Source: Bacteroidales bacterium (GTDB taxonomy: Bacteria > Bacteroidota > Bacteroidia > Bacteroidales > UBA932). Taken from it: DNA of 64,000 nucleotides. Of the stretch, positions 1-26,042 are shown piece after piece; within the stretch, counting starts at the first letter, position 1, and every line of letters begins with the position of its first letter. The translations under genes were made by a program, and so were the position numbers. A model generated the notes under the pieces. It did not search any database and was not told where the DNA came from. It saw nothing but the letters and a program-made list of their open reading frames with translations. The stretch spans positions 186,001-250,000 of the forward strand of contig JAFSQE010000022.1 of the NCBI GenBank assembly GCA_017446775.1, in the 5' to 3' direction.

Positions 1-1
1 C

Positions 2-1294: not shown

Positions 1295-1318
1295 TCACTT
1301 TTTTCAATGTTTGTTCAA

Positions 1319-1349: not shown

Positions 1350-1360
1350 AACAATCGGAT

Positions 1361-2584
1361 ATGAATAAATTGTTCAATATTGCATCGGCGATGCTTGTAC
1401 TTCTTCCCCTGTTGGCTTGTGGCTGTGAAAAAGACCCTTCAGACACCCCTGAGAAGGATACCCGCAGTGCGCTGGAGCGCTACTGGGCTGATGATTATAC
1501 GGGAGAGATAGGCATTCAGCAGGGAGAACACACAGTCAACGGCGTTGCCGTGCCACGTATGTTCCTGGGCGGCAAGCTGCTCTACGTGACCGGAATGAAC
1601 TGCTACAATCTTTTCGTTCAGTGTCACGAATCCAACGCGATGAAAACCGAGAATATGGAGAAAACGGTTGAAACCCTTGTAAAGGAGCAGGTACCCATTG
1701 TCCGCTTCAGTGGCAGTCCGTTCTATGCGAGCCAGTTCCACTTCTATATGGATAATAAACAGAAGTTCCTGGCCAATCTGGAGCATCTGGCCACTTTATG
1801 CGACGAGGCCCACATTCTGCTTATTCCCTCCATCTTCTGGAATACCGGCTCCGTTCCCGACTATTACGAAGAACATCCTACCGCCTGGGGCGATAAGTCC
1901 AGCAAAACCTACGCCCATATGCTGAGTTACACAACCGACATCGTCAATACTCTTAAAGATCACAAGTGCGTGGCGATGTGGGAGTTTGGCAACGAATTCA
2001 ACCTTGCGGCAGACATTGCCATTGCCGGTTATACCGATATTCCCGCACGGGTAGTGAGCACTGCATACCAGGGCTTTGCAGAGCTTATCAAGACTCTGGA
2101 CCCCCACGGGCGTGTGATCGCCAGCGGCAACAGCATCATGCGCAATGCGCAGTATCACCTTATGGTTGGTCCCAGCTGGGATACGGACTCATATGCACAG
2201 TACAAAGAGGTAACCGAAGTGTTCACTCCCGACCCGATGACAGGTATGTCGGAGCACGTATATGAAGATGCCAGAGTCTTTTCCGACAAAGGCACGGTAG
2301 GCCGAAGTGACCAGATTCTGTATGCCAAGCAAGCCGCCGCTGAGTTGGGCAAGGTATATTACATTGGCGAATTTACCGGCCCCAAGACGGCCGTAGGTGA
2401 TTCGCTGATGGTACGCAAGCATTTCATCTCCTATTATGCTCAGCGCGTTCAAATCTCACTGATGTGGAATTATGCCCTCAAGGGCGACATCGAGTGGAGT
2501 TTCAAGGCCGATACGCCTTATGGCAGAATGGCCTTCAATCTGATGCGCGAATACAACGAAAGATTCAAAACTGTAACCGAATAG
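1361..2584 (+). CDS. GH5-like glycoside hydrolase lipoprotein (candidate beta-mannanase/glucanase)
   Basis: A 407-residue lipoprotein: a hydrophobic signal runs to LLAC (Cys20), followed by CEKD, a lysine-acidic pattern like the Bacteroidetes lipoprotein export signal. The rest is a clan GH-A TIM barrel. Glu212 in WEFGNEFN fits the acid/base on strand 4, and Glu337 in YYIGEF fits the nucleophile on strand 7. Family GH5 is the best match, and the neighbouring beta-mannosidases make a mannan-active endo-enzyme plausible, but substrate cannot be read from the sequence. It is the first gene of a run (1361-12260) with gaps of only a few bases or overlaps. Its start is 11 bases after a terminator hairpin, so transcription must read through the hairpin or start inside it. 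Confidence 0.8.
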   Translation: MNKLFNIASAMLVLLPLLACGCEKDPSDTPEKDTRSALERYWADDYTGEIGIQQGEHTVNGVAVPRMFLGGKLLYVTGMNCYNLFVQCHESNAMKTENMEKTVETLVKEQVPIVRFSGSPFYASQFHFYMDNKQKFLANLEHLATLCDEAHILLIPSIFWNTGSVPDYYEEHPTAWGDKSSKTYAHMLSYTTDIVNTLKDHKCVAMWEFGNEFNLAADIAIAGYTDIPARVVSTAYQGFAELIKTLDPHGRVIASGNSIMRNAQYHLMVGPSWDTDSYAQYKEVTEVFTPDPMTGMSEHVYEDARVFSDKGTVGRSDQILYAKQAAAELGKVYYIGEFTGPKTAVGDSLMVRKHFISYYAQRVQISLMWNYALKGDIEWSFKADTPYGRMAFNLMREYNERFKTVTE

Positions 2585-2588
2585 CACT

Positions 2589-6522: not shown

Positions 6523-6528
6523 CCTGTT

Positions 6529-10739: not shown

Positions 10740-11314
10740 TGAAATCTCTGATTCAGAACAGTCTTGACGAACATCTTCGCGTGGCGCAGGCCTTCGTGGG
10801 CGATGCCGTTACGGTGGAGAATATTGATAAGGCGGCGCGGCTGATTGCCGATTCCATTAAGGCGGGTGGTAAGGTGCTCACCTGCGGTAATGGAGGGTCG
10901 CTTTGCGATGCCACCCATTTTGCTGAAGAGCTCACCGGGCGCTTCCGGGAAAGCCGTGGCCCGCTGCCGGCGATGGCCATAAACGATGCGGCACACATCA
11001 CCTGCACCACCAACGATTACTCCTTCGAGAAGATTTTCTCCCGCGTTGTGGAGGCACTGGGCCGGCCGGGCGATGTGCTGTGCGGCTTTTCTACCAGCGG
11101 CACATCCAAAAACGTGGTGGAGGCGGCCCGCGTGGCGCGCGAGAAGGGGATGAGGGTGGTGGGCTTCACCCGCACCGGTGACAATCCGCTTGCGGCGCTT
11201 TCCGACGCCGTGATAGCTGTGCCCCACGATGGCTACAGCGACCGCATCCAGGAGATGCACATCACCGCAGTGCATATTATAATAGAGGCTGTGGAAGAAC
11301 TTGTGAAACAATAG
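10736..11314 (+). CDS. gmhA: Phosphoheptose isomerase (SIS domain)
   Basis: A 192-residue SIS protein of normal GmhA length. GmhA converts sedoheptulose 7-phosphate to glycero-manno-heptose 7-phosphate, the first step of lipopolysaccharide/S-layer heptose synthesis. The signature CGNGGSLCDATHFAEE with the catalytic Glu, the STSGTSKNV phosphate loop and the RIQEMHI histidine all match active GmhA. The start may be 10736 or the second ATG at 10739. It overlaps the stop of the beta-mannosidase gene. Its place inside a glycosidase operon, without gmhB or hldE nearby, is odd; it may serve heptose synthesis simply by co-transcription, or act on another sugar phosphate. Confidence 0.9.
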   Translation: MMKSLIQNSLDEHLRVAQAFVGDAVTVENIDKAARLIADSIKAGGKVLTCGNGGSLCDATHFAEELTGRFRESRGPLPAMAINDAAHITCTTNDYSFEKIFSRVVEALGRPGDVLCGFSTSGTSKNVVEAARVAREKGMRVVGFTRTGDNPLAALSDAVIAVPHDGYSDRIQEMHITAVHIIIEAVEELVKQ

Positions 11315-11318
11315 TATT

Positions 11319-12260
11319 ATGAAAATATCGCGCAGATCATTCGTTAAGACAGGCCTCGCAGCATCCGCAGCCCTGGCTGCGACATCGTTATTGGGCACTG
11401 CATGCACTCCGGCCGTGCCGGGCAAAAAGGTCAAGGCCAAAAGGGTCATCATCTTCACCTTCGACGGCATCCGGGTGGATGGTCTTGCGCAGGCAAACAC
11501 CCCCAATATCGATTCGCTTATCGCAACCGGCAGCGCATCGTTCTTAACCCGCGACGTGATGCCCTCCATCACGCTGCCCAACTACACCAGTCATTTGCTG
11601 GGTGCGGGCCCGGAGGTTCACGGCGTCGTCGACAACAGCTGGACGATGGACAATATCAAACTGCCGGCGGTGGAGACAGACCAGGACGGTTATTTCCCAT
11701 CTGTGTTCAAGGTGCTGCACGATGCTGGCATCAAGACCGCCTATTACTGGAACTGGCTGCCGCTTATCAATCCCATAAACCAGAAGTGGCTTGACGACAA
11801 GCTTTCTTCTGAAGAGAATGATTACGCTACTCTGTGCGACCGCGCTATGGAGTTTATTGCGGCTAACCGCGACCAGAAGATGTTCATGTTCCTCTACGAT
11901 GTCTGGACAGACGTGATGGGGCACAGGCATCAGTGGATGTCTCCCGAATACATAAAGTCTATTGAAGACGATGATGCACAGGTGGGCCGTGTAATCGACT
12001 TCCTTAAAAAGGAGGGGCTGTATGAGGATTCCCATCTGATGTTCATATCAGACCACGGCGGGATCGGCTACGGCCACGGCGGTACCACTCCGGAAGAGAT
12101 GACCGTCCCGTGGATAATCTCCGGTCCAGGCATCAAAAAGGGATTTACCATAGAGGAATCCAACAACACCGTCAATACCGCCAGCACCGTACTGCGCCTT
12201 TTCGGTCTGGACCAGCCCCTTGCATGGACCGGCGAAGTGCCGACATCGATATTTGAATAA
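11319..12260 (+). CDS. Tat-exported alkaline phosphatase superfamily phosphodiesterase
   Basis: A 313-residue protein of the nucleotide pyrophosphatase/phosphodiesterase branch. The N-terminus has a twin-arginine motif (SRRSFVK) and a lipobox-like GTAC, suggesting a Tat-exported lipoprotein. Metal-binding and catalytic parts are visible: FTFDGIR (Asp), a Thr nucleophile in SITLPNYTS, and SDHGG followed by GHGG near residues 245-255. It would hydrolyse a phosphodiester or phosphomonoester outside the cytoplasm, for instance on a phosphorylated glycan, but the substrate is unknown. It is the last gene of the operon, 4 bases after gmhA, and is followed by a terminator hairpin at 12305. Confidence 0.85.
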   Translation: MKISRRSFVKTGLAASAALAATSLLGTACTPAVPGKKVKAKRVIIFTFDGIRVDGLAQANTPNIDSLIATGSASFLTRDVMPSITLPNYTSHLLGAGPEVHGVVDNSWTMDNIKLPAVETDQDGYFPSVFKVLHDAGIKTAYYWNWLPLINPINQKWLDDKLSSEENDYATLCDRAMEFIAANRDQKMFMFLYDVWTDVMGHRHQWMSPEYIKSIEDDDAQVGRVIDFLKKEGLYEDSHLMFISDHGGIGYGHGGTTPEEMTVPWIISGPGIKKGFTIEESNNTVNTASTVLRLFGLDQPLAWTGEVPTSIFE

Positions 12261-12304: not shown

Positions 12305-12331
12305 GGGTACCTTTTTTCGGGTACCTTTTTT
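12305..12331 (+). terminator. Terminator of the glycosidase operon
   Basis: GGTACC at 12306-12311 pairs with GGTACC at 12320-12325, extended by one G-U pair, and is followed by six T. It lies 45 bases after the last stop of the 1361-12260 operon. The stem is short, so termination may be partial. Confidence 0.6.
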
Positions 12332-12351: not shown

Positions 12352-12382
12352 TTTGAATTTTATTCAAAAACGGGTATCTTAG
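12352..12382 (+). promoter_or_regulatory. Bacteroidetes-type promoter for the DUF4988/TIM-barrel locus
   Basis: TTTG at 12352-12355 is followed after 19 bases by TATCTTAG at 12375-12382, one mismatch from the Bacteroidetes -7 box TAnnTTTG and with the standard 19-21 spacing. It lies about 40 bases before the start of the 709-residue lipoprotein and is the only good promoter I see for the whole 12.4-24.8 kb block. Confidence 0.65.
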
Positions 12383-12424
12383 CGCGATTGAACCGCCATA
12401 TTTGGAAATATGAGACTAATAAAT

Positions 12425-14554
12425 ATGAGAAAAATTATCCCTATCATCCTTACGGTGTGCGCTTTGCTGGCCGCATCGTGTACAGATTATCAGGCCCAGA
12501 TCGATGAACTTCAATCCAAGGTAGACAAGATTGCGGGCAAGGAGATCACTGTAGGTAAGATCAATGCCGGTGTGGCTGCGTTGCAGCAGTTGGTAGAGGC
12601 CGTTCAGGCGGGCGATGTGGTAAAGTTCTACACCCCGGCAGATGGCTGCTGCGTCGTGACATTCAAGAAAGCCGGCAATGTGACCCTTTACAACCAGACA
12701 TGTAATATAAGTGTGGCTGGGTTCTCAGGTGCCTATTACTGGAAACTGGGCGGCGAGTGGATCACAGATGGCTCTGCAGAGAAGGTTCCGGTGTCAACGC
12801 TGCCGCAGTTCAGGGTGAGCGACTATTCGCTGCAGATGTCTGTGGATGGCGGGAATACATGGAACAGTATCCCTGCTGTAGACGACTCGGTATTCGTGAG
12901 CATTGAAGATGATGCATCTTATCTGCATATCACCCTTGTGGGCGGGCAGAAGCTGGATATCCCCAAGAATGTCCCGCTGGCTGTCGCTTTCAGCGGCGAT
13001 GGCAGCACGTTTGCCGTCAGTGGCGTTGTGGAGGTTGAATACTGCATCAGTGGTGACACAGGCGATTATACGGTGACCCCCGTTGCCGGCGAAGGTTGGA
13101 CAGCCACTGTAGTTAAAGAGAATGAATTCAAGGGTACTATAAAGTTTGTGGCCCCGGCAGAACCTGTCGGCAGCACTGTACAGATTATGGTGAGCGACGG
13201 CATGGGACATATGGTGGCTTCTGAAATAGAGCTTGCGAGCCTCACCGTAAATGAAGACTTCCCTGTTATGTATCCCACCTGGGAGGCATATAATGTCGGT
13301 TACGAAGGAGGCCCTGTAGAGGTGAAGCTTAACACCAACCTCGAATATGAACTTGCTTTGGAAGACGCTGCATCTGAATGGCTCTCCGTTGGTCTGACAA
13401 GGGTTGTACGCGAAGAATCGGTATTTTTCACCGCCAAGGCCAACGATGCAACCTCGATGCGTTCTGCCCAGGTGACATTCACCAGTGGCGCATATATTAA
13501 AAAGGTTCTCATCTGGCAGGATGCAAAACAGCCTGCTATAGGCGAGAATCTGAGTGCAAACGGCACGGCAAACTGCTACATAGTAACCGACGAGGGTGAC
13601 TATTACTTTGACGCAAAGGTTGCAGGCAACGGCCCTGCGGGTGTTTTCCCCGTACTCGATTTCCCCGAAACGGCAGCCTTGGCCCCCGCCACTACAAATC
13701 TCTCCAACAAGGTGGAGGTGTTAACCAACCAGAACAATGTTATAAGCAATGTCCAGCTGTCGGCCGACGGCATAGTATCTTTCCATGCAAGCGGAGCCGA
13801 AGGCAATGCAGTCATCGCGGTGAAGAACCTGCGAGGGAAGATTATCTGGAGCTGGCATATCTGGTGTACTGACCTGCCAAAAGACCGCACCCATACCAAT
13901 CCCGATATGGTTCAGTTCACAGTAATGGACCGTAACCTGGGCGCTACCAGTGCCGATGCCGCCGACGGCGAGCAGACACATGGAATGTACTATCAATGGG
14001 GGCGCAAGGATCCCTTCACCGCCGATGTTATGCTGAACGGAATGAAGACCAACTCTTCGCAGTCTTTCCTGTTCGCAACACAGAACCCCGACTACGCATG
14101 TCTGGAGGTTTCAAACGGCAACTGGTATAAGGGCACCATGGTCAACAACTATCTCTGGGGCAATCCCGACTATCAGAAGACAATGGACCTGGCCGACATC
14201 CATAAATCCATTTACGACCCGTGTCCGCTTGGATATATGGTGCCGCCCTCCAATACGTTCCTGATTTTTGGAGACGAAAGCAGGGTCGAATATCTCGACA
14301 ACGGTATCCTGGTAAGGGGCGACTATGGTCAGACCAACTTCTATCCATTTGCCGGCCGTGCATACCGCAGCTTTGGCAGAATCGGTGTTGAGGTTACCCT
14401 CTGGCACTCCTGTGCCGCCCGTTACAGCATATACGACGACGACGGCGGTGCATGTACCCGTCTGTCCATGGTGGACAACAGAATCTACTGGTTCTACGGC
14501 GATATGCGCAGCCGCGGCATCCCCGTACGTTGCGTGAAACAAGTTTCCGAGTAA
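12425..14554 (+). CDS. DUF4988 + Ig/BACON + FISUMP-like surface lipoprotein
   Basis: A lipoprotein of 709 residues from the ATG at 12425 (MRKIIPII, lipobox AASC, Cys19); an in-frame ATG at 12410 would add five residues. The N-terminus is a DUF4988-type segment: a short coiled coil (IDELQSKVDKIAG) followed by a repeated beta unit (VTFKKAG, YYWKLGGEW, SVDGGNTW). Next come an Ig-like domain (GEGWTATV; about 190-270), a BACON-like domain (about 280-370), and a C-terminal FISUMP-like domain (about 380-709; MDRNLGAT, YYQWGRKDPF, YDPCPLGY, PVRCVK). DUF4988 is known from N-termini of Bacteroidetes surface lipoproteins including PL29-type lyases. No catalytic residues are evident; a glycan-binding or scaffolding role is possible. 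It opens the block of TIM-barrel paralogs and has its own promoter. Confidence 0.85.
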   Translation: MRKIIPIILTVCALLAASCTDYQAQIDELQSKVDKIAGKEITVGKINAGVAALQQLVEAVQAGDVVKFYTPADGCCVVTFKKAGNVTLYNQTCNISVAGFSGAYYWKLGGEWITDGSAEKVPVSTLPQFRVSDYSLQMSVDGGNTWNSIPAVDDSVFVSIEDDASYLHITLVGGQKLDIPKNVPLAVAFSGDGSTFAVSGVVEVEYCISGDTGDYTVTPVAGEGWTATVVKENEFKGTIKFVAPAEPVGSTVQIMVSDGMGHMVASEIELASLTVNEDFPVMYPTWEAYNVGYEGGPVEVKLNTNLEYELALEDAASEWLSVGLTRVVREESVFFTAKANDATSMRSAQVTFTSGAYIKKVLIWQDAKQPAIGENLSANGTANCYIVTDEGDYYFDAKVAGNGPAGVFPVLDFPETAALAPATTNLSNKVEVLTNQNNVISNVQLSADGIVSFHASGAEGNAVIAVKNLRGKIIWSWHIWCTDLPKDRTHTNPDMVQFTVMDRNLGATSADAADGEQTHGMYYQWGRKDPFTADVMLNGMKTNSSQSFLFATQNPDYACLEVSNGNWYKGTMVNNYLWGNPDYQKTMDLADIHKSIYDPCPLGYMVPPSNTFLIFGDESRVEYLDNGILVRGDYGQTNFYPFAGRAYRSFGRIGVEVTLWHSCAARYSIYDDDGGACTRLSMVDNRIYWFYGDMRSRGIPVRCVKQVSE

Positions 14555-14562
14555 GAACTCAG

Positions 14563-16155
14563 ATGAGACGCGCTTGCATATTGTTGATGGCATCCCTGTT
14601 GCCGATGCTCTCCTGCTGTCAGAAAGATGAGCAGGAGCGTCTTGCGCAGTTGCAGCAGGAGGCCGACAGCATTGCTGCGCTTTTGGCAGATACAGACGCG
14701 GCTACTGCCGATATAGAAGTGCCCCAGGAGAGTGCCTATCTCTTTACCTTTGATAAATACAAATATGGTGTGGATGCCGGCGCAAGCGTGAGCATACCAT
14801 TCAGCCTTCCCGAAAAATCCACGGTCGAGGTGATTGCGAAGGATGGTTGGAGCGCAACCGTAACTATGGATACGGATGTTTCGGGCGTGATTGTCGTCAC
14901 GGCTCCGGATCCTGCTGAATATGCTGACCTGGTGGCGGTGGCAACCGCAGAAGACGGAAAGCAGGTGGCGACCATCCTCAATCTGATGGTACGCGACCCG
15001 TTCAGCGATGATACCCGTCCGTATATCAACGCCCTGGGATACTACAGCTTTAAGCCGGCCCAGGCGACCCTCGAGAATTTTCAGAAACTGGTGGATGCCG
15101 GTATCAAGTCGGTGACACTGGAGTGTGATGATTACAACTGGAAGGAGCAGCTGGAACTGATTATCGAGGCGGGACTGCAGGTTTTGCCCGTTATCGGTTA
15201 CTACGGCGAACAGTATTACAAATATCTGGATGCGTACGACGGCCTGGACGAGGTGGTCAATTACCTCAAAGACAAGCCTGGGGTGCTGGCATATCATATC
15301 TGCGATGAACCAAGCGTAGACAAGGTATACGAGCTGATGTGCATCAAAGATAAGATAGAATCTCTAGACCCCGTGCATCCGGTATATGTGAATCTTGGTC
15401 CAGATGCTTCAAGGTCGTTCCTTGGCACCGAGTATTATCCCGACTATATTGAGTGCTATGCCGGATTGTGCGGTTTGAAACTTCTCTCGTTTGACATATA
15501 TCCGATTTTGCCGGGTGGAATCCAGAAAAGTTGGTACAAGTGCCTGGATACTGTGTCTAAGGCTGCTCAGAGCCACAACGTCCCCTTCTGGTCGTTCGCG
15601 GCCAGCTGCTGGATAAACAAGGAGACAACCCTCAGGGAGCGTCCCACGGTAGAGAATCTCCGTCTGCAGGTATATCACAACCTGTGCTACGGTGCGCAGG
15701 TGGTTCAGTACTTTACCATCTGCAGCTACAGCGGTACCAGCCTGGCCCCGATGATGGCCTACACCGATCAGTGGACCGATGCCTATGACGTACTGAAGGA
15801 TTTCAATCTGGAGATGCTCCGCCGCAGCTACGTTTTCGCAGGCTGCCGGGTGAACAGGCTCCGCCATACCAACTTTATGACAGCCTGGGGGCAGCAGATA
15901 AGCGTGCAGGACTATCCGGAAGTGATGACCTCGCTGGTTACCAGCAGCGATGCGCTTGTGTCATTTATAGAGAACAGGGGGAGCGAATATGTAGTGATTG
16001 CCAACAAGAGCTGGACAGAGAAGATAACCGCAGAGGTGGAATTCACCGATATGATATACACAATCGACCGCGACGGTACCTTTACAGAACGTCAGCCGGG
16101 CACAACCTCCGTTACCATAGACGAAGGCGATATGCTGGTCATAAAGTACAGATAA
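14563..16155 (+). CDS. DEP-motif TIM-barrel lipoprotein, paralog A
   Basis: A 530-residue lipoprotein starting at 14563; the frame is open further upstream, but the signal peptide and lipobox MLSC (Cys18) fix the start. CQKDE after the signal resembles the K-acidic-acidic surface export signal of Bacteroidetes lipoproteins. A short coiled coil (ERLAQLQQEADSIAALL), an Ig-like module (about 50-145; FTFDKYKYGVDAG, KDGWSATV, VTAPDPA) and a TIM barrel (about 150-450) follow. Glu249 in HICDEPS is placed like a GH-A acid/base. The strand expected to carry a nucleophile reads FWSFAASCW, without Glu. The C-terminal beta module ends in DEGDMLVIKYR. Four more paralogs lie downstream. Function unknown: glycosidase with a non-standard mechanism or a glycan-binding barrel. 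Confidence 0.8.
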   Translation: MRRACILLMASLLPMLSCCQKDEQERLAQLQQEADSIAALLADTDAATADIEVPQESAYLFTFDKYKYGVDAGASVSIPFSLPEKSTVEVIAKDGWSATVTMDTDVSGVIVVTAPDPAEYADLVAVATAEDGKQVATILNLMVRDPFSDDTRPYINALGYYSFKPAQATLENFQKLVDAGIKSVTLECDDYNWKEQLELIIEAGLQVLPVIGYYGEQYYKYLDAYDGLDEVVNYLKDKPGVLAYHICDEPSVDKVYELMCIKDKIESLDPVHPVYVNLGPDASRSFLGTEYYPDYIECYAGLCGLKLLSFDIYPILPGGIQKSWYKCLDTVSKAAQSHNVPFWSFAASCWINKETTLRERPTVENLRLQVYHNLCYGAQVVQYFTICSYSGTSLAPMMAYTDQWTDAYDVLKDFNLEMLRRSYVFAGCRVNRLRHTNFMTAWGQQISVQDYPEVMTSLVTSSDALVSFIENRGSEYVVIANKSWTEKITAEVEFTDMIYTIDRDGTFTERQPGTTSVTIDEGDMLVIKYR

Positions 16156-16163
16156 ACGCGATT

Positions 16164-17774
16164 ATGAAGATAAGACTCCATATCATTCTTTTTGCAGCGC
16201 TGCTGCTTGCCACCTCCTGCGACCAGGAGGGTAAAGACCGGCTGGATGCCCTGCAGAGTGAGGCCGACCAGATTGCCGGGCAAATGTCGGCAACCGATTC
16301 TCCATCGGTAGAAGTTGATGTGCCGGGCGACGAACCCTACGCATTTGCTTTTGACAGGCCACGCTATGGGGTGGATGCTGCAGGCAGCGTTACAATCAAA
16401 TATTCCCTGCCCAAGCCATCCACTGTAGAGGTTTTTGCAAAGGATGGGTGGAGTGCAGAGGTCAATGCCATCTCCGACACGCAGGGGGAGATTGTGGTAA
16501 CCTGCCCCGACCCCGCCGTGGGGAGCGAACTGGTTGCTGTAGCCACCGACCAGAACGGCCACAGCGTTGCGGTTCCGCTTAACATAATCGTCCGGGACCC
16601 CTATACAGATGAGACCCGCACCACCATTTGCACGATGGGATACTATGGCTTCAAGCCCGGTGTGGCCAAACTGGAAAACTTCCAGAAGCTGGCAGAAGCC
16701 GGCATCGATGCGATAACCGTAGAGGCAGACGAACCAGACTATATGGACCAGCTGGACATGGCCTATCAGGCAGGAGTCAAGTGCGTGCCGGTGATAATGT
16801 ATTATACAGAGCGCTACTCAATCTACGGCGATGACTACAAAGGTCTGGAAGAGATAATCACCAAACTGAAGAATCATCCCGCAACTATGGCATACCATAT
16901 ATGGGATGAGCCCAGCACAAAGAACATCCCCACGATAAAGATGCAGAAAGAGAAGATAGAGGAGCTGGATCCCGACCATCCGGTATATGTCAACCTCAAT
17001 CCCGACGGCAGCCCGGGTGCACTGGGCGTTGACTACTATCACGATTATATAGAGGCATTTGTGCGCGACTGCAAGGTGAAGTTCCTTTCGTTTGACATGT
17101 ATCCCATGCGTCCCGAAACCGACCCTGATTATCCCGACGGAATAGTAGGATACTGGTATCAGTGCCTGGAGGCTGTTTCGAACATCACCAAACAGTATGG
17201 CATCCCTTTCTGGGCGTTTGCCGCAAGCTGCTGGATAAACAAAGAGCAGAATTTGTTTGCAAAGCCTACCGTGGCCAATCTCCGCATGCAGGCCTATACA
17301 AATATGGCATACGGCGCACAGGTGCAGCAATACTTTACCATAATGCAGTACGGAGGTACCGACTATGCGCCTATCAGTTACGACGGCAGTTGGACCGGAG
17401 CGTACGACACGCTCAAAGAGTTCAATCTGGAACTGCGAAAGCGCGGCTATATCTTTGATGGCTGCAAGATGGACCGGGTGCGTTATACCCACGTGGTGCC
17501 CTTCTTCTGCCAGAGGCTTGCAGATAAGGATCTCCCGCCGCAGATTGCAACGCTAACCACAGCCGGCGATGCTCTGGTATCGTTTATCGAGAACCGTGGG
17601 AACCAGTATGTGGTGGTCTGCAACCGCTCCTATAAAGATGAAAATACCCTGAGCCTGGATTTGAACGATATGGTGTATGTGATAGACCGCGAAGGCAATT
17701 TTATAGAGTGCGCAGCCGGCACTTCGACCTTTGAGATGGAGGCGGGGGATATGCTTGTGATAAAAATTAAGTAA
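16164..17774 (+). CDS. DEP-motif TIM-barrel lipoprotein, paralog B
   Basis: A 536-residue lipoprotein (lipobox ATSC, Cys19) with the same layout as paralog A: coiled coil (KDRLDALQSEADQIAGQM), Ig-like module (FAFDRPRYGVDAAG, KDGWSAEV, VTCPDPA), TIM barrel, and a closing beta module ending EAGDMLVIKIK. Glu249 in HIWDEPS aligns exactly with Glu249 of paralog A. FLSFDMYP and FWAFAASCW mark the next strands, again without a second Glu at the nucleophile position. It is the closest relative of paralog A by eye. It starts 8 bases after paralog A and ends one base before paralog C, so the three are surely one transcript. Confidence 0.8.
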   Translation: MKIRLHIILFAALLLATSCDQEGKDRLDALQSEADQIAGQMSATDSPSVEVDVPGDEPYAFAFDRPRYGVDAAGSVTIKYSLPKPSTVEVFAKDGWSAEVNAISDTQGEIVVTCPDPAVGSELVAVATDQNGHSVAVPLNIIVRDPYTDETRTTICTMGYYGFKPGVAKLENFQKLAEAGIDAITVEADEPDYMDQLDMAYQAGVKCVPVIMYYTERYSIYGDDYKGLEEIITKLKNHPATMAYHIWDEPSTKNIPTIKMQKEKIEELDPDHPVYVNLNPDGSPGALGVDYYHDYIEAFVRDCKVKFLSFDMYPMRPETDPDYPDGIVGYWYQCLEAVSNITKQYGIPFWAFAASCWINKEQNLFAKPTVANLRMQAYTNMAYGAQVQQYFTIMQYGGTDYAPISYDGSWTGAYDTLKEFNLELRKRGYIFDGCKMDRVRYTHVVPFFCQRLADKDLPPQIATLTTAGDALVSFIENRGNQYVVVCNRSYKDENTLSLDLNDMVYVIDREGNFIECAAGTSTFEMEAGDMLVIKIK

Positions 17775-17775
17775 C

Positions 17776-19359
17776 ATGAAAAGAATATCTACACTGTTTG
17801 CATGTTTTGTGCTTCTGCTCGCAGTTTCTTGCCATAAAGAAGAAAAAGAGCGTCTTGAGCAGTTGCGCCAGGAGGCAGAGCGTTTGCAGCAAGATTTGTC
17901 AGAAACCTCTGCCCCGGGCGACCCCGATGTTCAAATCCCCTCTTATTCAGAGTATCGTTTCTCTTTTGACAAAGAGCGATATGGCGTGGATGCAGGCGGC
18001 AGCGTGACTCTGAACTATACCCTGCCGGAGGATTCACGGATAGAACTCATGGTCAAGGATGGATGGAGTGCAGAACTCATCGCGACCGATGCAAAAAGCG
18101 GACAGATTGTGGTCACCTGCCCAGATCCGGCCATTGCGAGCGACGTGGTTGTAAAGGCAGTAACTACAGAGGGAAGTTCTGTGGCACAGGTGCTGCCGCT
18201 GCTGGTGCGCGACCCCTATACCGATGCCACCCGTACGGATGTGGCGGCGATGGGGTATTTCTGCTTCTATCCGGGCATCGCTACCGATTACCACTTCAGC
18301 AAGATGGCAGAGTGCGGGATGAACATGCTTACCATAGAGGCCTATGATAACTGGGAAGAGCAACTGGAACTCTCCGAAAAGTATGGACTTAAAGGGGTCC
18401 TGTTCGTGAATGGCGCTGCCGGAGATTATTACTTCAATCAAGCGGATACAAAGCTGTCGGAAATCATTGCAGTGGCCAAGGATATGCCTGCACTTGCGGG
18501 ATATCAGATATTTGACGAGCCGTCCGTAAAGAACATCGGCCAGATAAAGTTCGAGAAGGACAGGATAGAGGAGCTGGATCCGAATCCCAATCACCCGGTA
18601 TATGTCAATCTCCATCCAAGCAGCGTCTCAGCTGGAGGAATGGGCGTGGAGGACTACTTCGAATATGTAGAGAAAATAGTTACCGAGTGTGACCTCAAGT
18701 TTATCACATTTGACCAGTACCCGGTCTTTACATCTGGAATAGACCCTTCATGGTCCAGGTCGCTGGCAGCAATATATGAGTCGTCAAAGCGGCATAATAT
18801 TCCGTTCTGGGCATTCACACTGTGCTGCCGCGAGCATAACCGGGAAGATCCGAACGTGGGCAATATCCGCCTGCAGTGCAACACCAACCTGGCATACGGA
18901 GCCCAGGTTAACCAGTTCTTTGTATATCGCGCCACCAGCGGTACAAACTATGCTCCACTGATGGGCGACGGCACCTACACCAAAGCCTACGATGACTGCA
19001 AGACATACTGCACAGAGATGCACAATCGTGGTTACGTTTTCTCCGGCAGTGATGTCAAGTTCCTGCGCCAAACCATAGAGGCGGATACATACGGCTGTTT
19101 CTTGTCGGAAAGGGATTATCCCGATGCCGTGAGTGCATTCTCCACCAGCGGGCCGACACTTGTCTCTTTTATAGAGAACAAAGGCAACAGCTATATGGTG
19201 GTGGTGAACAAAAACTGGCAGGAAGCCATAAATGTGGATATCACATTCGAGGATATGGTGTATGTCATAGACCACGACGGTGAGTTTACAGAATACCAGA
19301 AAGGCGATGCGCACCTCAGTATTGAAGAGGGCGACATGATGGTAATCAAATACAGATAA
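17776..19359 (+). CDS. DEP-motif TIM-barrel lipoprotein, paralog C
   Basis: A 527-residue lipoprotein (lipobox AVSC, Cys19; CHKEE right after it, a K-acidic-acidic surface export-like signal). It has the coiled coil (KERLEQLRQEAERLQQDL), Ig-like module (FSFDKERYGVDAGG, KDGWSAEL, VTCPDPA) and TIM barrel. Glu248 in QIFDEPS matches the conserved acid/base-like Glu. The strand that reads FAASCW in A and B is diverged here (FWAFTLCCREH), so side-chain chemistry in the pocket differs. The C-terminus ends EEGDMMVIKYR. It ends with a TAATG overlap into the following DUF4988 gene. Confidence 0.8.
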   Translation: MKRISTLFACFVLLLAVSCHKEEKERLEQLRQEAERLQQDLSETSAPGDPDVQIPSYSEYRFSFDKERYGVDAGGSVTLNYTLPEDSRIELMVKDGWSAELIATDAKSGQIVVTCPDPAIASDVVVKAVTTEGSSVAQVLPLLVRDPYTDATRTDVAAMGYFCFYPGIATDYHFSKMAECGMNMLTIEAYDNWEEQLELSEKYGLKGVLFVNGAAGDYYFNQADTKLSEIIAVAKDMPALAGYQIFDEPSVKNIGQIKFEKDRIEELDPNPNHPVYVNLHPSSVSAGGMGVEDYFEYVEKIVTECDLKFITFDQYPVFTSGIDPSWSRSLAAIYESSKRHNIPFWAFTLCCREHNREDPNVGNIRLQCNTNLAYGAQVNQFFVYRATSGTNYAPLMGDGTYTKAYDDCKTYCTEMHNRGYVFSGSDVKFLRQTIEADTYGCFLSERDYPDAVSAFSTSGPTLVSFIENKGNSYMVVVNKNWQEAINVDITFEDMVYVIDHDGEFTEYQKGDAHLSIEEGDMMVIKYR

Positions 19360-19370
19360 TGCAAGGCATT

Positions 19371-20207
19371 ATGACACGCAAGATACTCATATTGACCTTT
19401 TCCGCGCTGCTTGCCGTCTCGTGTGGCGATTACGACCAGCGGTTGGATGAAATGCAGCGCCAGATAGACGACCTGGTGACAACAACCTCCAGGATCAACG
19501 AGAATGTTGCTGCCATGAAGGCTATTGTAGAGGCTATCCAGGCTCAGGACGAGGTGGTTTCGCTTGCACCGGTCACAGAGGGCGGCAAGGTCGCCGGTTA
19601 TACCGTAACCTTCAAGCAGGGGGGCAGCGTAACTGTTTATAATTCCACTGCAAATGTGACGGTGGGAGAGTATCAAGGCCGGTATTACTGGATGGTGGAT
19701 GGTGACTGGCTCAAAGACTCTGCCGGCAATAAGATAGAGGCATGCGCAGGCGCAGCTACACCGCAGTTCGTAATATCGGATGGCATCATCAGGGTCTCTC
19801 TCGACGGAGGTCGCAGCTGGACCGATGTGGGCCGGGTGGGGGTTGCTGTGCTGGCCTCGGTAGAAGATGGGCCCGACGCTGTCACGCTGGTGCTTGCCAG
19901 CGGGGCACGCATTGTCCTGCCCAAGCAAAAGTCGCTGAGCGTGACTCTGAGCACCAACCGCCTTTCAATGGGGGCGGGCAGCGGCCGCACCATCGGCTAC
20001 ACCATCACCGGGGGTACCGATGATACCCAGGTCATAACCTATGCCAAGGATGGCTGGAGCGCTACCGTGAGTCCGGAATCGGCCTCGGAGGGGTATATCA
20101 CAGTCATGTCGCCGGGCGTCGCAAGCGAATCCGCCGTGCTGGTTTTTGTCTCGGACAACACCGGCCGCAGCATAGTGACACAGTTGACGGTCGTTTCTAC
20201 CAAATAA
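19371..20207 (+). CDS. Short DUF4988 + Ig-like lipoprotein without FISUMP domain
   Basis: A 278-residue lipoprotein from the ATG at 19371 (MTRKILIL, lipobox AVSC); an ATG at 19359 overlapping the previous stop is also in frame. It has the DUF4988-type N-terminus (coiled coil LDEMQRQIDDLV, VTFKQGG, YYWMVDGDW, SLDGGRSW) and one Ig-like domain at the C-terminus (AKDGWSATVSPE, ITVMSPG). That last domain resembles the Ig-like module of paralogs A-C, which links the two protein types. Compared with the 709-residue protein at 12425 it lacks the BACON-like and FISUMP-like parts, yet it ends in a clean stop, so it looks like a shorter natural form rather than a broken gene. Function unknown. Confidence 0.75.
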   Translation: MTRKILILTFSALLAVSCGDYDQRLDEMQRQIDDLVTTTSRINENVAAMKAIVEAIQAQDEVVSLAPVTEGGKVAGYTVTFKQGGSVTVYNSTANVTVGEYQGRYYWMVDGDWLKDSAGNKIEACAGAATPQFVISDGIIRVSLDGGRSWTDVGRVGVAVLASVEDGPDAVTLVLASGARIVLPKQKSLSVTLSTNRLSMGAGSGRTIGYTITGGTDDTQVITYAKDGWSATVSPESASEGYITVMSPGVASESAVLVFVSDNTGRSIVTQLTVVSTK

Positions 20208-20218
20208 TACCCTTTTGA

Positions 20219-20986
20219 ATGAAGCCTGCAGTTACACTCTTTACCATAGCGGTGATTCTTCTGGCAGCGTGCGCGCCGTCACAGAAGGTGGCCCGTTACG
20301 GCATCAGTGTGGAGCAGGAATATCCCCACGACACACTCTCCTATACGCAAGGCCTCTTTTTTGCCGATGGCGATCTTTACGAGACGGCTGGTCAGTACGG
20401 TGAATCGCGCCTTATCAAGGTCGATTTGCAAACCGGCGCGGCAAAACAACAGGTTGCGATGGAAGCTGAGATCTTTGCAGAAGGCAGTTGCGCCATAGGT
20501 GGCGAGATATTCGTGCTGACCTGGCTGGAAGGGGTGTGTCTGGTGTACGATAAAGAGACATTCGATCCTATCGGCCGCAAGACATACAAGCGCCAGGGGT
20601 GGGGACTTACCACCGACGGCAGCCTGCTTATCATGAGCGACGGCAGCGCCTAGATCTATTTTGTCAATCCCAAGACATTCACCACCGTGCGCAGCGTCAC
20701 CGTACATCGCGGAGGCAAGAGCGTCAACTATCTCAACGAGCTGGAGTTTATCAACGGCAAGATCTGGGCGAACATATACACCAAAGACGAGATTGTGATA
20801 ATCAACCCCGCCAGCGGCGAGGTCGAAGGGGTGATAGACTGCAGAGGCCTGCTGCCCAGTGATTTGCGCAGCGAACGTACCGATGTGCTCAACGGCATAG
20901 CCTGCAACCCCGACACCGGGGAGATATTCCTCACCGGCAAATACTGGCCGCGGATGTACCGGGTTACCCTTACGGAAAAGAAATAA
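20219..20986 (+). pseudogene. Glutaminyl-peptide cyclotransferase interrupted by an in-frame TAG
   Basis: The frame encodes a full-length (about 255 codons) secreted glutaminyl cyclase of the beta-propeller type (Glu_cyclase_2 family), which forms N-terminal pyroglutamate. It has a lipobox LAAC (Cys18), QEYPHDTLSYTQGL, YGESRLIKVDL, GWGLTTDG and LNELEFINGKIWAN. Codon 145 is TAG at 20651-20653, in the middle of SDGSA-stop-IYFVNPKTF; homologs usually continue through this site, and a single C-to-T change from CAG (Gln) would explain it. No frame change occurs, and the rest to 20986 is well conserved. Either a recent nonsense mutation, a sequencing error, or readthrough. TAG ends several other genes here, so genome-wide recoding is unlikely. 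Confidence 0.8.
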
Positions 20987-20998
20987 TACACTATAAAG

Positions 20999-22495
20999 AT
21001 GTACAGGAGATTATTGTTGATGCTGGTACTGCTGTCGCTCTCTGCGACTCTTGGTGCCAGCGACGGTGTTATTCGCTTTGACAAGACACGATACTGCGTA
21101 AGTGCTGCAGAGAGTGTCACGATCGAGTATTCACTCCCCAAAGAGGGCAATTTTGCCGTATCGACTCTCAAGGGACACGGCTGGCAGTGCCAGGTTTATG
21201 CTGCCGACCGTCTTCACGGACGCATCGTGGTAACGGCTCCCGACCCGGCAACGGAGGTGGAGATGGTGGCGCATGCAATCTATCCGGGCGGTGAACAGAT
21301 TGTGGCAACGCTCCCCATAATGGTAAAGGACCCCTATACCGATGCGACGCGGCCCAGGATAGACCTGCTCCCGTTTGGAGGTCTGGACAGGGTGAATACT
21401 ACCCAGGAAGATTATAACAAGGTGGCGCAGGCCGGCTTCACCATGATAACGCTGGAGGGTGGCGAAAAGATGGATATGAACGGCGACGGCACACTGGACG
21501 ACGACGATATGCTGGCCACTATCCGTTTCAAGCTGGACCTTATCAAAAACGCGGGTCTGAAATACTCCCTGCATCACCCCCAGCTTGCCAGTGTGATAGA
21601 GCTGTGTAAAGACGATCCGGACCTGACTATGATACATATCTTTGACGAGCCCGGCCTGAATCTGATACCGATGTTGAAGCAGCGCCGCGACTGGATAAAG
21701 GCCATCGCCCCTGACGTGCCTGTGCACATCAACCTACATCCGCACGCCAGCGTCCGCGCACTTGGCACCGATTATTATACCGACTATGTCCGCAAGATGG
21801 TAGAGGGGACCGGTATGGATATCCTCTCTTACGACCATTATCCGGTGCTGATAGACGGCAGCGTGATGAACGAGTGGTACCGTTGCCTGGAGGCAAACTA
21901 TCAGGTAGGCAAAGAAAAGGGGGTCCCCATCTGGCTCTTCACCGCCTCCTGCGGCATGGATTACGAACGCCCGGCACGCCAGATACCCACCATGAATAAT
22001 CTCCGCCTGCAGGTCTATACCGACCTGGCATACGGTGCCCCGGTGGTACAGTATTTTGTGTACCGTTCGTACTCTAAGCAGTGCATCGCTCCTATAACGG
22101 TAGATGGCAAGTATACGTATCTCTATGACCTGGTAAAGGAGTTCAACGCCGAGGTACACCGCCGCGGTTTTGTGTTTGCCGGCGGCAACGTATCCAAGGT
22201 ACGCTTCACCCACCTGACTCCCTATTACTGCCTGCCGCTGATAAGTGAAGACCTGCCTGAAGAGATAACATCCATTGATTCCGACAGGACGGCTTTGGTG
22301 TCGTTTGTGGAGAACGGCAGCAACAGATATATCGTTATGGTAAACAGCAGCTGTATGGAGAAGTTCACCGTAGATGTGGAGTTCGCCACCACTGTCTGCA
22401 CCATAGACCGGGACGGTGTATTCACAGAACATCAGCCTGGTAAAGCCAGCTTCGTGGTGGACGAAGGTGATATGTTGGTAATCAAATACAGATAA
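20999..22495 (+). CDS. DEP-motif TIM-barrel secreted protein, paralog D
   Basis: A 498-residue relative of paralogs A-C. It has a cleavable signal (residues 1-20, LGASDG) but no lipobox cysteine and no coiled coil, so it is probably periplasmic rather than anchored. The Ig-like module is present (IRFDKTRYCVSAAES, VTAPDPA), then the TIM barrel with Glu217 in HIFDEPG. The barrel contains an acidic insert near residues 160-172 (DMNGDGTLDDDD) that looks like a dockerin-type calcium loop and is absent from the others. FTASCGM replaces the FAASCW strand. The C-terminus ends DEGDMLVIKYR. It lies 12 bases after the broken glutaminyl cyclase. Confidence 0.8.
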   Translation: MYRRLLLMLVLLSLSATLGASDGVIRFDKTRYCVSAAESVTIEYSLPKEGNFAVSTLKGHGWQCQVYAADRLHGRIVVTAPDPATEVEMVAHAIYPGGEQIVATLPIMVKDPYTDATRPRIDLLPFGGLDRVNTTQEDYNKVAQAGFTMITLEGGEKMDMNGDGTLDDDDMLATIRFKLDLIKNAGLKYSLHHPQLASVIELCKDDPDLTMIHIFDEPGLNLIPMLKQRRDWIKAIAPDVPVHINLHPHASVRALGTDYYTDYVRKMVEGTGMDILSYDHYPVLIDGSVMNEWYRCLEANYQVGKEKGVPIWLFTASCGMDYERPARQIPTMNNLRLQVYTDLAYGAPVVQYFVYRSYSKQCIAPITVDGKYTYLYDLVKEFNAEVHRRGFVFAGGNVSKVRFTHLTPYYCLPLISEDLPEEITSIDSDRTALVSFVENGSNRYIVMVNSSCMEKFTVDVEFATTVCTIDRDGVFTEHQPGKASFVVDEGDMLVIKYR

Positions 22496-22506
22496 TAGTT
22501 CAGTTT

Positions 22507-23622
22507 ATGAAAAAGATACTTGTTTTATTATTGTCGGTTGCACTTGTCGCCATTGCAGGGTGCTCCCATCGCCATTCTGCCGCTTCTGTATGGGATTCGG
22601 CTGTCAATCTGAGCGACGCCGGCCATGCCAATTGCTATATCGTACCGGCCGCGGGATTATATTGTTTTGACGTTACCGTCATCGGCAACGGGCAGCAGGG
22701 CATCATCCCTGGCGCAAAATTCCATACCGAGAATGCCACAATCGCTCCCGTTTCTGCAAAGGTGCTGACCAACGACGGTGCCGTGAGTGATGTCAGCTTT
22801 GACGGCAGCAAGGTTTATTTCCGTGCCGGCGAGGCTCTTGGAAACGCCCAGATTGCAGTGTACGACGCATTTGGCGATGTGCTCTGGAGCTGGCATATCT
22901 GGCGCACCGATACCCCTAAGGAGATAACCCACACCAACCGCGACAAGATATCCTGGACCGTGCTCGACCGCAACCTGGGAGCTACCAGCGCCGACCCTGA
23001 CAACTGGGAAGGAACCCTGGGGCTGTACTATCAGTGGGGCCGCAAGGATCCGTTCACATCAAAGCAGATTCTGAAAAAGATGTACGTCAACCAGGAGAAG
23101 TCACTCGCGTATGCCGTTAAGAATCCCACCCGAGCGTTCCTGCTGGTGGCAGGGAAGGACGTTTATGATGCGTTTGACTGGTATGTGGTTAGCAAGGACG
23201 AGACCAACCATCACCTCTGGGGCAACCCCGATTTCGCCTTCTGCCATCCGCTTAAAGATATGGTCAAGACAATCTACGACCCGTGTCCGGCAGGATATCT
23301 GGTGGCGCCCTCCAACACCTTCATAGATTTTGAGGTGCCTCAGAAGATGGAGTTTGTCCCCGGCGGCTTCTTCTTTATGGCCGATAACGGCCAGAAGGAG
23401 TTCTTCCCCTATGCCGGTGGCTTCTATCTGGGCATGGTAGACCGCAGCGAACCCTCCGGCCCTTACTGCTCCCTTTGGAACTCCTGCAGCGCCCGTTTCA
23501 TATATTGGGACGACGGCGGCTGCCGCACCCAGGTGGACGGAACCACCCGCGAGGCGCGTCTCTATTACGGCGACCTGCGCCCCCGCTGCTATCCTGTACG
23601 TTGCGTGAAACAGGCAGAATAG
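22507..23622 (+). CDS. FISUMP-like lipoprotein
   Basis: A 371-residue lipoprotein (lipobox IAGC, Cys19) that is essentially one FISUMP-like unit preceded by its usual beta segment (SDAGHANCYIVPAAG, WSWHIWRTDTP). Markers are LDRNLGATSAD, YYQWGRKDPF, YDPCPAGY and PVRCVKQ at the very end. It matches the C-terminal half of the 709-residue protein at 12425 (TANCYIV, WSWHIWCTDLP) very closely, so it could have arisen by duplication of that half without the DUF4988 and BACON parts. It sits between paralogs D and E in the same transcript. Role unknown; presumably surface-exposed. Confidence 0.85.
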   Translation: MKKILVLLLSVALVAIAGCSHRHSAASVWDSAVNLSDAGHANCYIVPAAGLYCFDVTVIGNGQQGIIPGAKFHTENATIAPVSAKVLTNDGAVSDVSFDGSKVYFRAGEALGNAQIAVYDAFGDVLWSWHIWRTDTPKEITHTNRDKISWTVLDRNLGATSADPDNWEGTLGLYYQWGRKDPFTSKQILKKMYVNQEKSLAYAVKNPTRAFLLVAGKDVYDAFDWYVVSKDETNHHLWGNPDFAFCHPLKDMVKTIYDPCPAGYLVAPSNTFIDFEVPQKMEFVPGGFFFMADNGQKEFFPYAGGFYLGMVDRSEPSGPYCSLWNSCSARFIYWDDGGCRTQVDGTTREARLYYGDLRPRCYPVRCVKQAE

Positions 23623-23631
23623 GACAGATTT

Positions 23632-24828
23632 ATGAGAAGGTTCTGCACTCTGGCAATCCTGATACTCTGTGCCTGCAACCTGCGGGCGCAGGATAAGATT
23701 ATCTCCATGGGCTATCTCGGATTCCGCGATGCCGGCGCCACTCTGGAGAACTTCATGATGCTCTCTCAGGCTGGTATAGATATGCTGACTCTGGAACTTG
23801 ACCAGGACACCGCCGCCCTGCAGTTGGATTTGGCGCAGGAGACGGGGTTGATGATACTCGCAGTGCTGGCGCCATACACAGATCGTTCTTCAATCGAGGA
23901 GGTGGATTTCGACCTGGTGGACAGCATCGTGAACCGCTTCAAGAACCATCCCGCCCTTTATGGCTGGCATATCTGCGACGAGCCGGGATTAAAGCGTATT
24001 CCGTATCTGAAATATGTAAAGGAACATATCGAGGCGCTGGACCCCGTGCATCCGGTATACATCAATCTTAACCCGCTGGGCTCCATTCGGGCTCTGGGTA
24101 CCGATTATTATCCCGATTACGTGGAGGCCTATGCCTGGGAGTGCAGCCTCAAGCTGCTCTCTTACGACTGCTACCCCGCAATGAGCTATGGCATCCTTAA
24201 CTGGTGGTATATGTGCAACGAGGCGGTAGCGGCCACCTGCCGGCGTCACAACATTCCCTTCTGGGCATTTGCAGCTACCTGCTGGATAGACCGCGAAGGG
24301 CCCAACAACATGCACGCGAAGCCGACGCTGGAGAACATCCGCCTGCAAATCAATACCAACCTTGCCTACGGCGCGCAGGTGATGCAGTATTTCACCATCC
24401 GGGACTTTGGCGGCAGCTCCCTGGCTCCGAACATGGGCAACACCAGATGGACCAGCGCCTATGATACCATGAAGGCCGCGAACCTTGAGATGAAGTGCCG
24501 CGAACACATCTTTGGCGGCTGCAAGGTCCTTGCGACCCGTTTCACACACCTGACACCCTTCGCCTGCCTGCCGCTTACGCCAGGCGATTTGCCCTCTGAG
24601 GTCGGCGCCCTGGATACCGACCGTACCGCCCTGGTATCGATCTTAGAGAATAACGGCGCCCGCTATGTGGTGGTTGTCAACTCCACAGATAAAGAAAAAT
24701 GCACGGCCAGTGCGACCTTTACTGCCCCTTGCTCTCTGATAGACCGCACCGGGGCCGTGATACCCGTTACCTCTGGCAGCCACACCTTTGTAATAGATGA
24801 GGGTGACATGCTGGTGATTGCCATCTGA
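23632..24828 (+). CDS. DEP-motif TIM-barrel secreted protein, paralog E (barrel only)
   Basis: A 398-residue member of the same family with a signal peptide ending near LRAQD and no lipobox. It goes straight into the barrel (ISMGYLGFRDAGATLENF) and lacks both coiled coil and Ig-like module, so it defines the minimal catalytic or binding unit. Glu117 in HICDEPG is conserved, as are LLSYDCYP, FWAFAATCW and the C-terminal DEGDMLVIAI. As in the others, no Glu is seen where a GH-A nucleophile is expected. It is the last member of the tandem series. Confidence 0.8.
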   Translation: MRRFCTLAILILCACNLRAQDKIISMGYLGFRDAGATLENFMMLSQAGIDMLTLELDQDTAALQLDLAQETGLMILAVLAPYTDRSSIEEVDFDLVDSIVNRFKNHPALYGWHICDEPGLKRIPYLKYVKEHIEALDPVHPVYINLNPLGSIRALGTDYYPDYVEAYAWECSLKLLSYDCYPAMSYGILNWWYMCNEAVAATCRRHNIPFWAFAATCWIDREGPNNMHAKPTLENIRLQINTNLAYGAQVMQYFTIRDFGGSSLAPNMGNTRWTSAYDTMKAANLEMKCREHIFGGCKVLATRFTHLTPFACLPLTPGDLPSEVGALDTDRTALVSILENNGARYVVVVNSTDKEKCTASATFTAPCSLIDRTGAVIPVTSGSHTFVIDEGDMLVIAI

Positions 24829-24848
24829 TCAAATCAAAAAACTACAAT

Positions 24849-26042
24849 ATGCACCGCTCACTTGTGATAATGCTCTCGCTGCTGGTCGCCTGCGCACAGT
24901 TGCCACCCCAACCGGAACAAATTGTCCTGCACAGGGAAGAGGGGTCGATAACCTTTGCCGTAGATGACGTCGAACCGCTTGACTACCATCTTTACAGGGA
25001 AGAATCGGGGCTGAAGCTGGCAGAAAGTCTCCATAATGCCCCCGACGGCAATTATATTGATAACTGGAATCCGGAGATTGTGGCGTGCAGTTTTGCGGCC
25101 GACACGAATCTGTGCCACATTGGCGAGGACGTAGTGTTCCAGATGCTGATGCAGGCATGGTCGGAGCACCGGCCGGTGGTGTTGTCGCCCGATGTGATAT
25201 GGCTGCTTATCTGCCAGCAGTTCAGTCATTACGTGAACCAGAACCCGGAGAAGGTGCGCCATCTGATGGTGGACCATAAGGGCAGGCAGCAGCTTGTGGT
25301 AAGGGTCTTCGATAAACCGCAAAGCGTTGCCGCATGGGGCTCCGTCATAGATGAATTTGCGGGCGATATTGCTGCAAACACCAACAATGGCATCGCATCT
25401 GCTCTGGTGGCCGACTTTACAACCACGGCAGTTGACGAGCGGATTGCATCTGAGGTGACCCTTATGGATGTCGTAAAGCCGTACTTTGAATACATTGTGG
25501 TTTACGGAGTCTGCGGCATTCCCTCCATAACCGTGACCGGCACCCCCCAGGACTGGCATAAAGTGATGGAAAAGACCAGGTCCCTGGAACAATACGGCCT
25601 TAAATGGTGGGTGAAGGATCTTTTGCCCATACTGGAGCAGTTCTCCAGGGCGTCGGAAGGAGATCCCGACTACTGGTTCTGGAAGGATATTGTGAAAAAG
25701 ACGCGTCCCCGCGAGATACAGGGACCGACCTGCGACGGAAGCAGGCCCCGGCTTACAAAGTTCGACGGCTGGTTCTTGAAGTTCTTCCCGTTTGACAACG
25801 ACGGCCGTACCCCCAAAAAAGTCACCGTTACCCAGACGATGCTTGCAGAGACCGTGGCGGTGCCGTTCAAATATCGAGAAGAGAATTTGGACGGAGTTGT
25901 GATTGGCGAGACCACTATGGAGATTGTGGCCGGCATCGTTGGCGTGCAGGAAGATACCACAAGCTTTAGCTTAACTCCAAGGATAGGATGGTTTGTACGC
26001 ACCGCGAGACCTGTTGAAGATAATCCCGTTTCTGCCGAGTAA
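24849..26042 (+). CDS. DUF4419 lipoprotein
   Basis: A 397-residue protein with a lipoprotein-like signal (LLVAC, Cys15) and a DUF4419 domain over most of its length; RPVVLSPDVIWLLICQQF and the GIPSITVTGTPQDWHKV strand are typical of that family, which occurs in fungi and bacteria and has no known activity. It follows paralog E by 20 bases and could be on the same transcript, but its content does not link it to glycan use. It ends two bases before the nitroreductase start. Confidence 0.75.
   Translation: MHRSLVIMLSLLVACAQLPPQPEQIVLHREEGSITFAVDDVEPLDYHLYREESGLKLAESLHNAPDGNYIDNWNPEIVACSFAADTNLCHIGEDVVFQMLMQAWSEHRPVVLSPDVIWLLICQQFSHYVNQNPEKVRHLMVDHKGRQQLVVRVFDKPQSVAAWGSVIDEFAGDIAANTNNGIASALVADFTTTAVDERIASEVTLMDVVKPYFEYIVVYGVCGIPSITVTGTPQDWHKVMEKTRSLEQYGLKWWVKDLLPILEQFSRASEGDPDYWFWKDIVKKTRPREIQGPTCDGSRPRLTKFDGWFLKFFPFDNDGRTPKKVTVTQTMLAETVAVPFKYREENLDGVVIGETTMEIVAGIVGVQEDTTSFSLTPRIGWFVRTARPVEDNPVSAE

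Follow-up and report, generated by a model that had tools for sequence, protein, structure and literature searches.

Clan GH-A of the glycoside hydrolases (GH), to which GH35 belongs along with the GH42 beta-galactosidases and the GH164 beta-mannosidase, is characterized by an acid/base Glu at the end of barrel strand 4 and a nucleophile Glu at the end of strand 7. The GH35 exo-beta-D-glucosaminidase TkGlmA has Asp178 directly before the acid/base Glu179, where it is considered to select the amino group, and retains its nucleophile as Glu347 (PMC8861115). GH123 has consecutive Asp and Glu residues at the active site, with the Asp holding the 2-acetamido group (PMC11087588). We have analysed a stretch of 64,000 nucleotides (the window) of the 2.0 Mb assembly of a Bacteroidales bacterium (the source genome, G000; contig C6, 186001-250000), and describe in it a block of ten plus-strand genes at 12410-26042 that includes five barrel paralogs. 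The nearest named relatives of the genome are Bacteroidales metagenome assemblies, most of them from ruminant gut. The block is a conserved, separable operon with GH-A-derived barrels in which the clan nucleophile is absent from its usual place, and its function is probably surface glycan breakdown.

The barrels depart from GH42 and GH164 enzymes in that the strand-7 nucleophile position is acidic in none of 70 sequences, the residue before the acid/base is Asp and not Asn, and the trimerisation domain gives no match. They share consecutive Asp and Glu residues (D248-E249 in barrel 2, 69 of 69 sequences) with GH123 beta-N-acetylgalactosaminidases, a parallel that is no proof of homology, and Asp directly before the acid/base Glu with TkGlmA, although unlike TkGlmA they lack a nucleophile Glu at the usual place. 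As in Bacteroidetes polysaccharide utilization loci (PULs), tandem lipoproteins accompany glycan-acting enzymes, and one PUL adjoins the block here; unlike these loci, the block contains no SusC/SusD, and in two related genomes (G006 and G025) it lies apart from SusC/SusD. In contrast to the DUF4988-like module of the Bacteroides ovatus GH98 endoxylanase (9h6f), the DUF4988 of the block is followed by immunoglobulin (Ig)-like, BACON-like and FISUMP-like domains and not by a GH98 domain. If correct, this interpretation would add a new carbohydrate-active enzyme family, arranged in tandem in rumen bacteria, with invariant residues that make its chemistry testable. It would also suggest a niche in the rumen, the digestion of polysaccharides with rhamnose (perhaps bacterial ones), that annotation centred on plant fibre could miss.

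A conserved block of barrel paralogs

The products of genes 14563, 16164, 17776, 20999 and 23632 share a barrel, a DEP(S/G) motif and a C-terminal beta module ending in [EA]GDM[LM]VI, much as the original prediction described them. Barrels 1 (14563..16155), 2 (16164..17774) and 3 (17776..19359) are lipoproteins in which, by eye, a lipobox is present and an acidic coil follows the cysteine. By the same inspection, barrel 4 (20999..22495) has a signal peptide without lipobox and combines an Ig-like domain with the barrel, barrel 5 (23632..24828) is exported and has no Ig-like domain, and both are without a coil. At 32.2 bits (E 9.5e-8), barrel 4 exceeds the Pfam cut-off for GH42, 21 bits, which barrel 5 exceeds marginally (22.6 bits, E 7.8e-5; also GH2_C, 2.2e-5). 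Profile searches returned no Pfam GH42 match for barrels 1-3, and none at E<=0.1 for Glyco_hydro_42M (the beta-galactosidase trimerisation domain) or GH123_cat in any of the five. Structure prediction, made for barrel 2 only, gives a predicted (beta/alpha)8 barrel of clan GH-A whose closest structural match is GH42, as ranked in Foldseek's list, outside which other GH families may still match. None of the characterised GH families accommodates the five barrels cleanly; the GH42 matches of barrels 4 and 5 and the clan GH-A fold nevertheless give them known relatives. Barrels 3-5 are under purifying selection, with a ratio of nonsynonymous to synonymous rates (dN/dS) of 0.11-0.14 between the source genome and G021 by the Nei-Gojobori method, dS being close to saturation for barrel 3. 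A sixth barrel relative (35% identity) lies off the block at G000:C24:49681-50787 (L006, L057), and similar matches occur in several genus genomes.

The ten genes are separated by 8, 8, 1, -1, 11, 12, 11, 9 and 20 bp, and the predicted tandem, interleaved layout is thus borne out, as are its two DUF4988 lipoproteins: PF16378, with a cut-off of 30 bits, scores 44.2 in 12410 and 66.8 (E 2.7e-18) in 19359. The first gene (12410..14554) encodes a lipoprotein with a coiled coil, DUF4988, Ig-like and BACON-like domains and a C-terminal domain that shares 46% identity with that of the lipoprotein at 22507..23622. The domain is called FISUMP-like here, after the Fibrobacter major paralogous domain. 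The lipoprotein at 22507 is present as predicted, but its FISUMP label finds no support in the profile libraries, since neither it nor 12410, which has the domain too, gives a Pfam or NCBIfam match to the family at E<=0.1; the literature searched yielded nothing on FISUMP and a single paper in which DUF4988 occurs. The second DUF4988 lipoprotein (19359..20207) ends in the Ig-like domain common to the barrels, and its orthologs are matched by the barrel profile at E 1.4e-14 to 1.5e-10. Against sequences of solved structures it has only weak GH98 matches (E 0.2) and 12410 has no useful match; the 12410 model retrieves mostly generic multi-Ig chains in Foldseek (TMq 0.10-0.13). The 12410 product is a probable surface glycan-binding protein.

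A promoter-like site, TTTG-N19-TATCTTAG, in agreement with the Bacteroidetes promoter consensus, lies at 12352..12382 on the plus strand directly 5' of the first ATG. It is a candidate for the single visible promoter claimed earlier, albeit one that is weak alone because chance gives 1.85 matches per window. A terminator-like hairpin (12305..12326, plus strand) that separates the block from the locus upstream is likewise weak as a boundary, with 19 hairpins found in the 16 kb scanned versus 12.9 expected. The operon closes at its 3' end with a DUF4419 protein gene (24849..26042, plus strand; PF14388, 1.9e-66), for which there is no counterpart among the relatives' loci compared for block layout.

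Searched against 198 relatives, the barrel alignment matched 23 genomes, including the source genome. Thirteen of the 25 other genomes of the same genus were matched, G014 and G024 with weaker matches only, and the block itself is present in 12 of 26 genus genomes (eleven and the source genome), so that the multi-paralog surface system recurs as a conserved neighbourhood. A barrel-4 query gives 13 of 26 by counting G014, and in G010 it finds other slots only. Where contigs permit, the order is the DUF4988-FISUMP-like protein, two to four barrels, a DUF4988 protein and/or a glutaminyl cyclase, and barrel 4, often followed by the FISUMP-like lipoprotein and then an M15 peptidase and barrel 5. 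The M15 peptidase (PF13539, 3.3e-23) is a usual block member in relatives (G006, G007, G009, G010, G016, G017, G018, G020, G023 and G025; that of G009 is partial, in L079, and was assigned through contig number and coordinates). In a sample of the phylum, with at most three candidates scored per genome, one of 395 genomes besides the source matched at E<=1e-15. In a FastTree phylogeny of 71 sequences, slots 4 (10 tips) and 5 (11 tips) have support of 1.0, slots 1 and 3 have 0.73 and 0.77, and all 14 tips of slot 2 together have 0.335; with such low support elsewhere, the slots can firmly be called old only in the case of slots 4 and 5 and of a subgroup of slot 2 found beside rhamnose genes.

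Active-site residues and substrate clues

In barrel 2, the proposed acid/base pair D248-E249 (codons 16905..16910, plus strand) lies at the end of strand 4 and D311-x-Y313 (17094..17102, plus strand) at the end of strand 6. All four residues are invariant in 69 sequences, relatives in other families among them; these counts omit the tip L040_617-2779p, a DUF4988 protein picked up through an N-terminal match. The acid/base Glu of the clan at strand 4 thus has its apparent equivalent in E249, preceded in the alignment by Asp in all 69 barrels and by Asn in GH42. By alignment to 3tts, the GH42 strand-7 Glu corresponds to A353 (17220..17222, plus strand). Among 70 sequences this position is A in 40, T in 21, V in five, L in two, and S and I in one each, and neither it nor any of residues 350-356 is acidic in any of them.

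Two sets of neighbours bear on the substrate. Relatives of slot 2 are located downstream of rhaB, rhaA and rhaT in other genomes; these rha-type barrels number seven in six genomes (L063, L064, L066-L070; L063 and L068 share a genome). They group in a single clade with support of 1.0, next to which the block copies from G000 and G023 branch (0.987). In the type locus L064, RhaA is above its NCBIfam cut-off (611 versus 572 bits), and rhamnulokinase (505.8 versus 528) and RhaT (330 versus 369) are slightly under theirs. A rhaT is present in every rha-type locus except L068, whose sequence begins at the barrel, and the gap from the rhaT stop to the barrel start is 4 bp in L064 and 8 bp in L067. 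In the source genome the contig ends ~280 bp past rhaT. The rhaT-barrel interval of L066, L069 and L070 holds variable small genes, one of them a 154-aa helix-turn-helix antitoxin-like gene, and may be an insertion hotspot.

The second set comes from eleven distant loci with flanks (L052-L055, L082-L088), a set apart from the further distant matches in G061, G066, G082, G097, G101 and G112. A GH78 rhamnosidase gene is near the barrel in six (L052, L082, L083, L085, L086 and L087); the order has 101 GH78 matches in 99 genomes (~3.5 Mb a genome), which corresponds to ~0.6% per random 20 kb, a figure that ignores gene clustering, which raises it. L054 combines SusC/SusD with GH20, L053 has GH38, SIS, ROK and an epimerase, and in L085 a protein by the barrel locus has a weak GLMA-type domain match (1.7e-5, under cut-off). 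Together with the M15 peptidase, these neighbours suggest an envelope glycan containing rhamnose and amino sugar. Some bacterial envelope polysaccharides contain both. No relevant paper on a wall-polysaccharide PUL was found in the literature searched.

Candidate chemistries and the limits of the operon

We consider it likely that the block is a surface operon breaking down a rhamnose-containing heteroglycan. Joined to substrate-assisted chemistry in the barrels, the same proposal of a separable surface operon falls slightly short of an even call, and substrate-assisted retaining catalysis taken by itself is tentative. In this proposal the glycan would be held and presented by 12410, 19359 and 22507, lipoproteins that bear coils and DUF4988/Ig/BACON-like stalks; barrels 1-3, with their lipid anchors and acidic coils, would cut it at the surface, and the coil-less barrels 4-5 would act further inside; we infer both the surface display and the hydrolase activity of the barrels. 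E249 would act as acid/base, and D248, with Y313, would hold a 2-amino or 2-acetamido group replacing the missing nucleophile, in which case rhamnose and an amino sugar would both be part of the substrate. Loss of the nucleophile with the change of Asn to Asp is the trace that a shift to substrate-assisted catalysis would be expected to leave. A more specific version, that a GH-A barrel dropped its nucleophile (strand-7 Glu lost, Asn-Glu to Asp-Glu) and diversified in tandem into at least five slots for one rhamnose/amino-sugar envelope-type heteroglycan, is rather doubtful; were it true, the barrels would be a new GH family recording a route from a classical retaining enzyme to a substrate-assisted one.

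Several observations weigh against this proposal. A Glu lies within 14 columns past the nucleophile position in 61 of 61 genus sequences (and in one of nine distant relatives), in WINKE-like or REW-like contexts at varying alignment places, and this loop Glu (E361 in barrel 2) might reach the active site as a shifted nucleophile; substrate-assisted chemistry is rated lower because all 61 genus members have it. Alternatively, the barrels could be inverting, with D311 as base. GH123 membership was rejected, with hhalign at ~1% and no GH123_cat match at E<=0.1. Because L-rhamnose lacks a 2-amino group, the two substrate clues diverge; genes stand between rhaT and the barrel in three of seven rha-type copies (L066, L069, L070); GH78 was not found near the barrel in five of the eleven distant loci (L053, L054, L055, L084, L088); and the loci that do have it amount to about three independent cases, since L082 and L083, and L085-L087, are close kin. 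The M15 gene was not found in the blocks of the source genome and G021.

It is possible, though again only tentatively proposed, that the barrels are inverting glycosidases, with E249 as acid and D311 as base, that free L-rhamnose from an alpha-L-rhamnoside, the amino sugar being uninvolved. The invariance of D311 (69 of 69), the GH78 neighbours and the slot-2 relatives 4 and 8 bp past rhaT all agree with this, although it leaves the Asp in place of the GH42 Asn before the acid/base (69 of 69) unexplained, and five separately kept slots seem many for one terminal sugar.

Another view, which we regard as rather unlikely, is that the block merely ends the SusC/SusD locus upstream, the two forming one ordinary PUL. 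The block itself contains no SusC/SusD, as predicted, but genes for a LacI regulator, a GH78 rhamnosidase, SusC and SusD lie upstream, directly before the window start. The distal part of this locus (1..12260, plus strand) encodes a 22507-like (FISUMP-like) lipoprotein, GH5-type, GH2, GH5-like and GH39 proteins, a GH2 mannosidase, SIS and a phosphodiesterase; the GH5-type gene matches 8d89 ('endo-mannanase') at E 3e-166, on which there was no paper among the literature matches listed. Locus and block are contiguous in G000 and G021, and upstream genes adjoin block genes in L044, L075 and L077. However, in G006 and G025 no such locus intervenes, and the block directly adjoins flank genes that in G021 stand beyond the SusC/SusD locus. 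These are GH123, glutamate dehydrogenase, acyltransferase, oxidoreductase and beta-lactamase-like genes, all but GH123 named by eye. GH39 was found in seven of 26 genomes and not in six of the 12 block genomes (G006, G007, G009, G020, G023 and G025, several of these assemblies being incomplete). The arrangement in G006 and G025 and the distribution of GH39 indicate that block and locus are separable. Against a single unit there also stand a promoter-like and a terminator-like site of the block's own, each of them weak. In the locus flank, a GH123 gene lies by a glutamate dehydrogenase-like gene (L058:866-2650; G000:C6:155557-156510), and three weak GH123_cat matches occur in a row at G000:C35:56170-61641.

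Less plausible are classical retaining clan GH-A enzymes in which the nucleophile has moved to the loop Glu past strand 7; this Glu is universal among the 61 genus sequences, but its position varies between slots, and eight of nine distant relatives lack it while retaining every other site residue. We also find it improbable that the barrels are catalytically dead binding proteins with a GH42-like fold, as the non-acidic nucleophile position (70 of 70) and the further binding-type lipoproteins alongside might imply, given the invariance of the acid/base pair and D311/Y313 in 69 sequences and the low dN/dS of barrels 3-5. Ordinary GH42-type retaining beta-galactosidases, to which the scores of barrels 4 and 5 and the barrel 2 model point, are very improbable: the nucleophile position holds no Glu, strand 4 has Asp where GH42 has Asn, and there is neither a trimerisation-domain match nor a GH42 match in barrels 1-3.

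The glutaminyl cyclase

The glutaminyl cyclase gene (20219..20986, plus strand) is the sole PF05096 match in the source genome, and its frame is interrupted by an in-frame TAG at 20651-20653. The TAG is best taken as a recent mutation or an assembly error, because the portion past it is still conserved (dN 0.114, dS 0.88). Glutaminyl cyclase serves the Bacteroidetes Q-rule (PMC10653852). Among 14 genus genomes without the block, matches to the cyclase and to a TonB receptor were both found in seven, on one contig in six (G001, G004, G008, G013, G019, G022) and on separate contigs in G011. By match coordinates the two are 99-104 bp apart in five genomes and ~180 bp apart in G013, where the TonB match begins at residue 31; the gene order was seen in L096, L097 and L098. 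With a TonB-receptor neighbour in six of the seven block-less genomes with both genes, the cyclase was rejected as a partner in the system: it is interleaved with the barrels as predicted, but as a resident with a broken frame. The simplest reading is that the cyclase was present first and the block grew around it. An island with a clean empty site was not supported, as block-less genomes have more divergent TonB copies (43-49% identity) and other lipoproteins by the cyclase. In two of them, one to three lipoprotein-like frames (917-1195 aa) lie by the cyclase at the block's place (L096:9175-12759, L097:779-10350).

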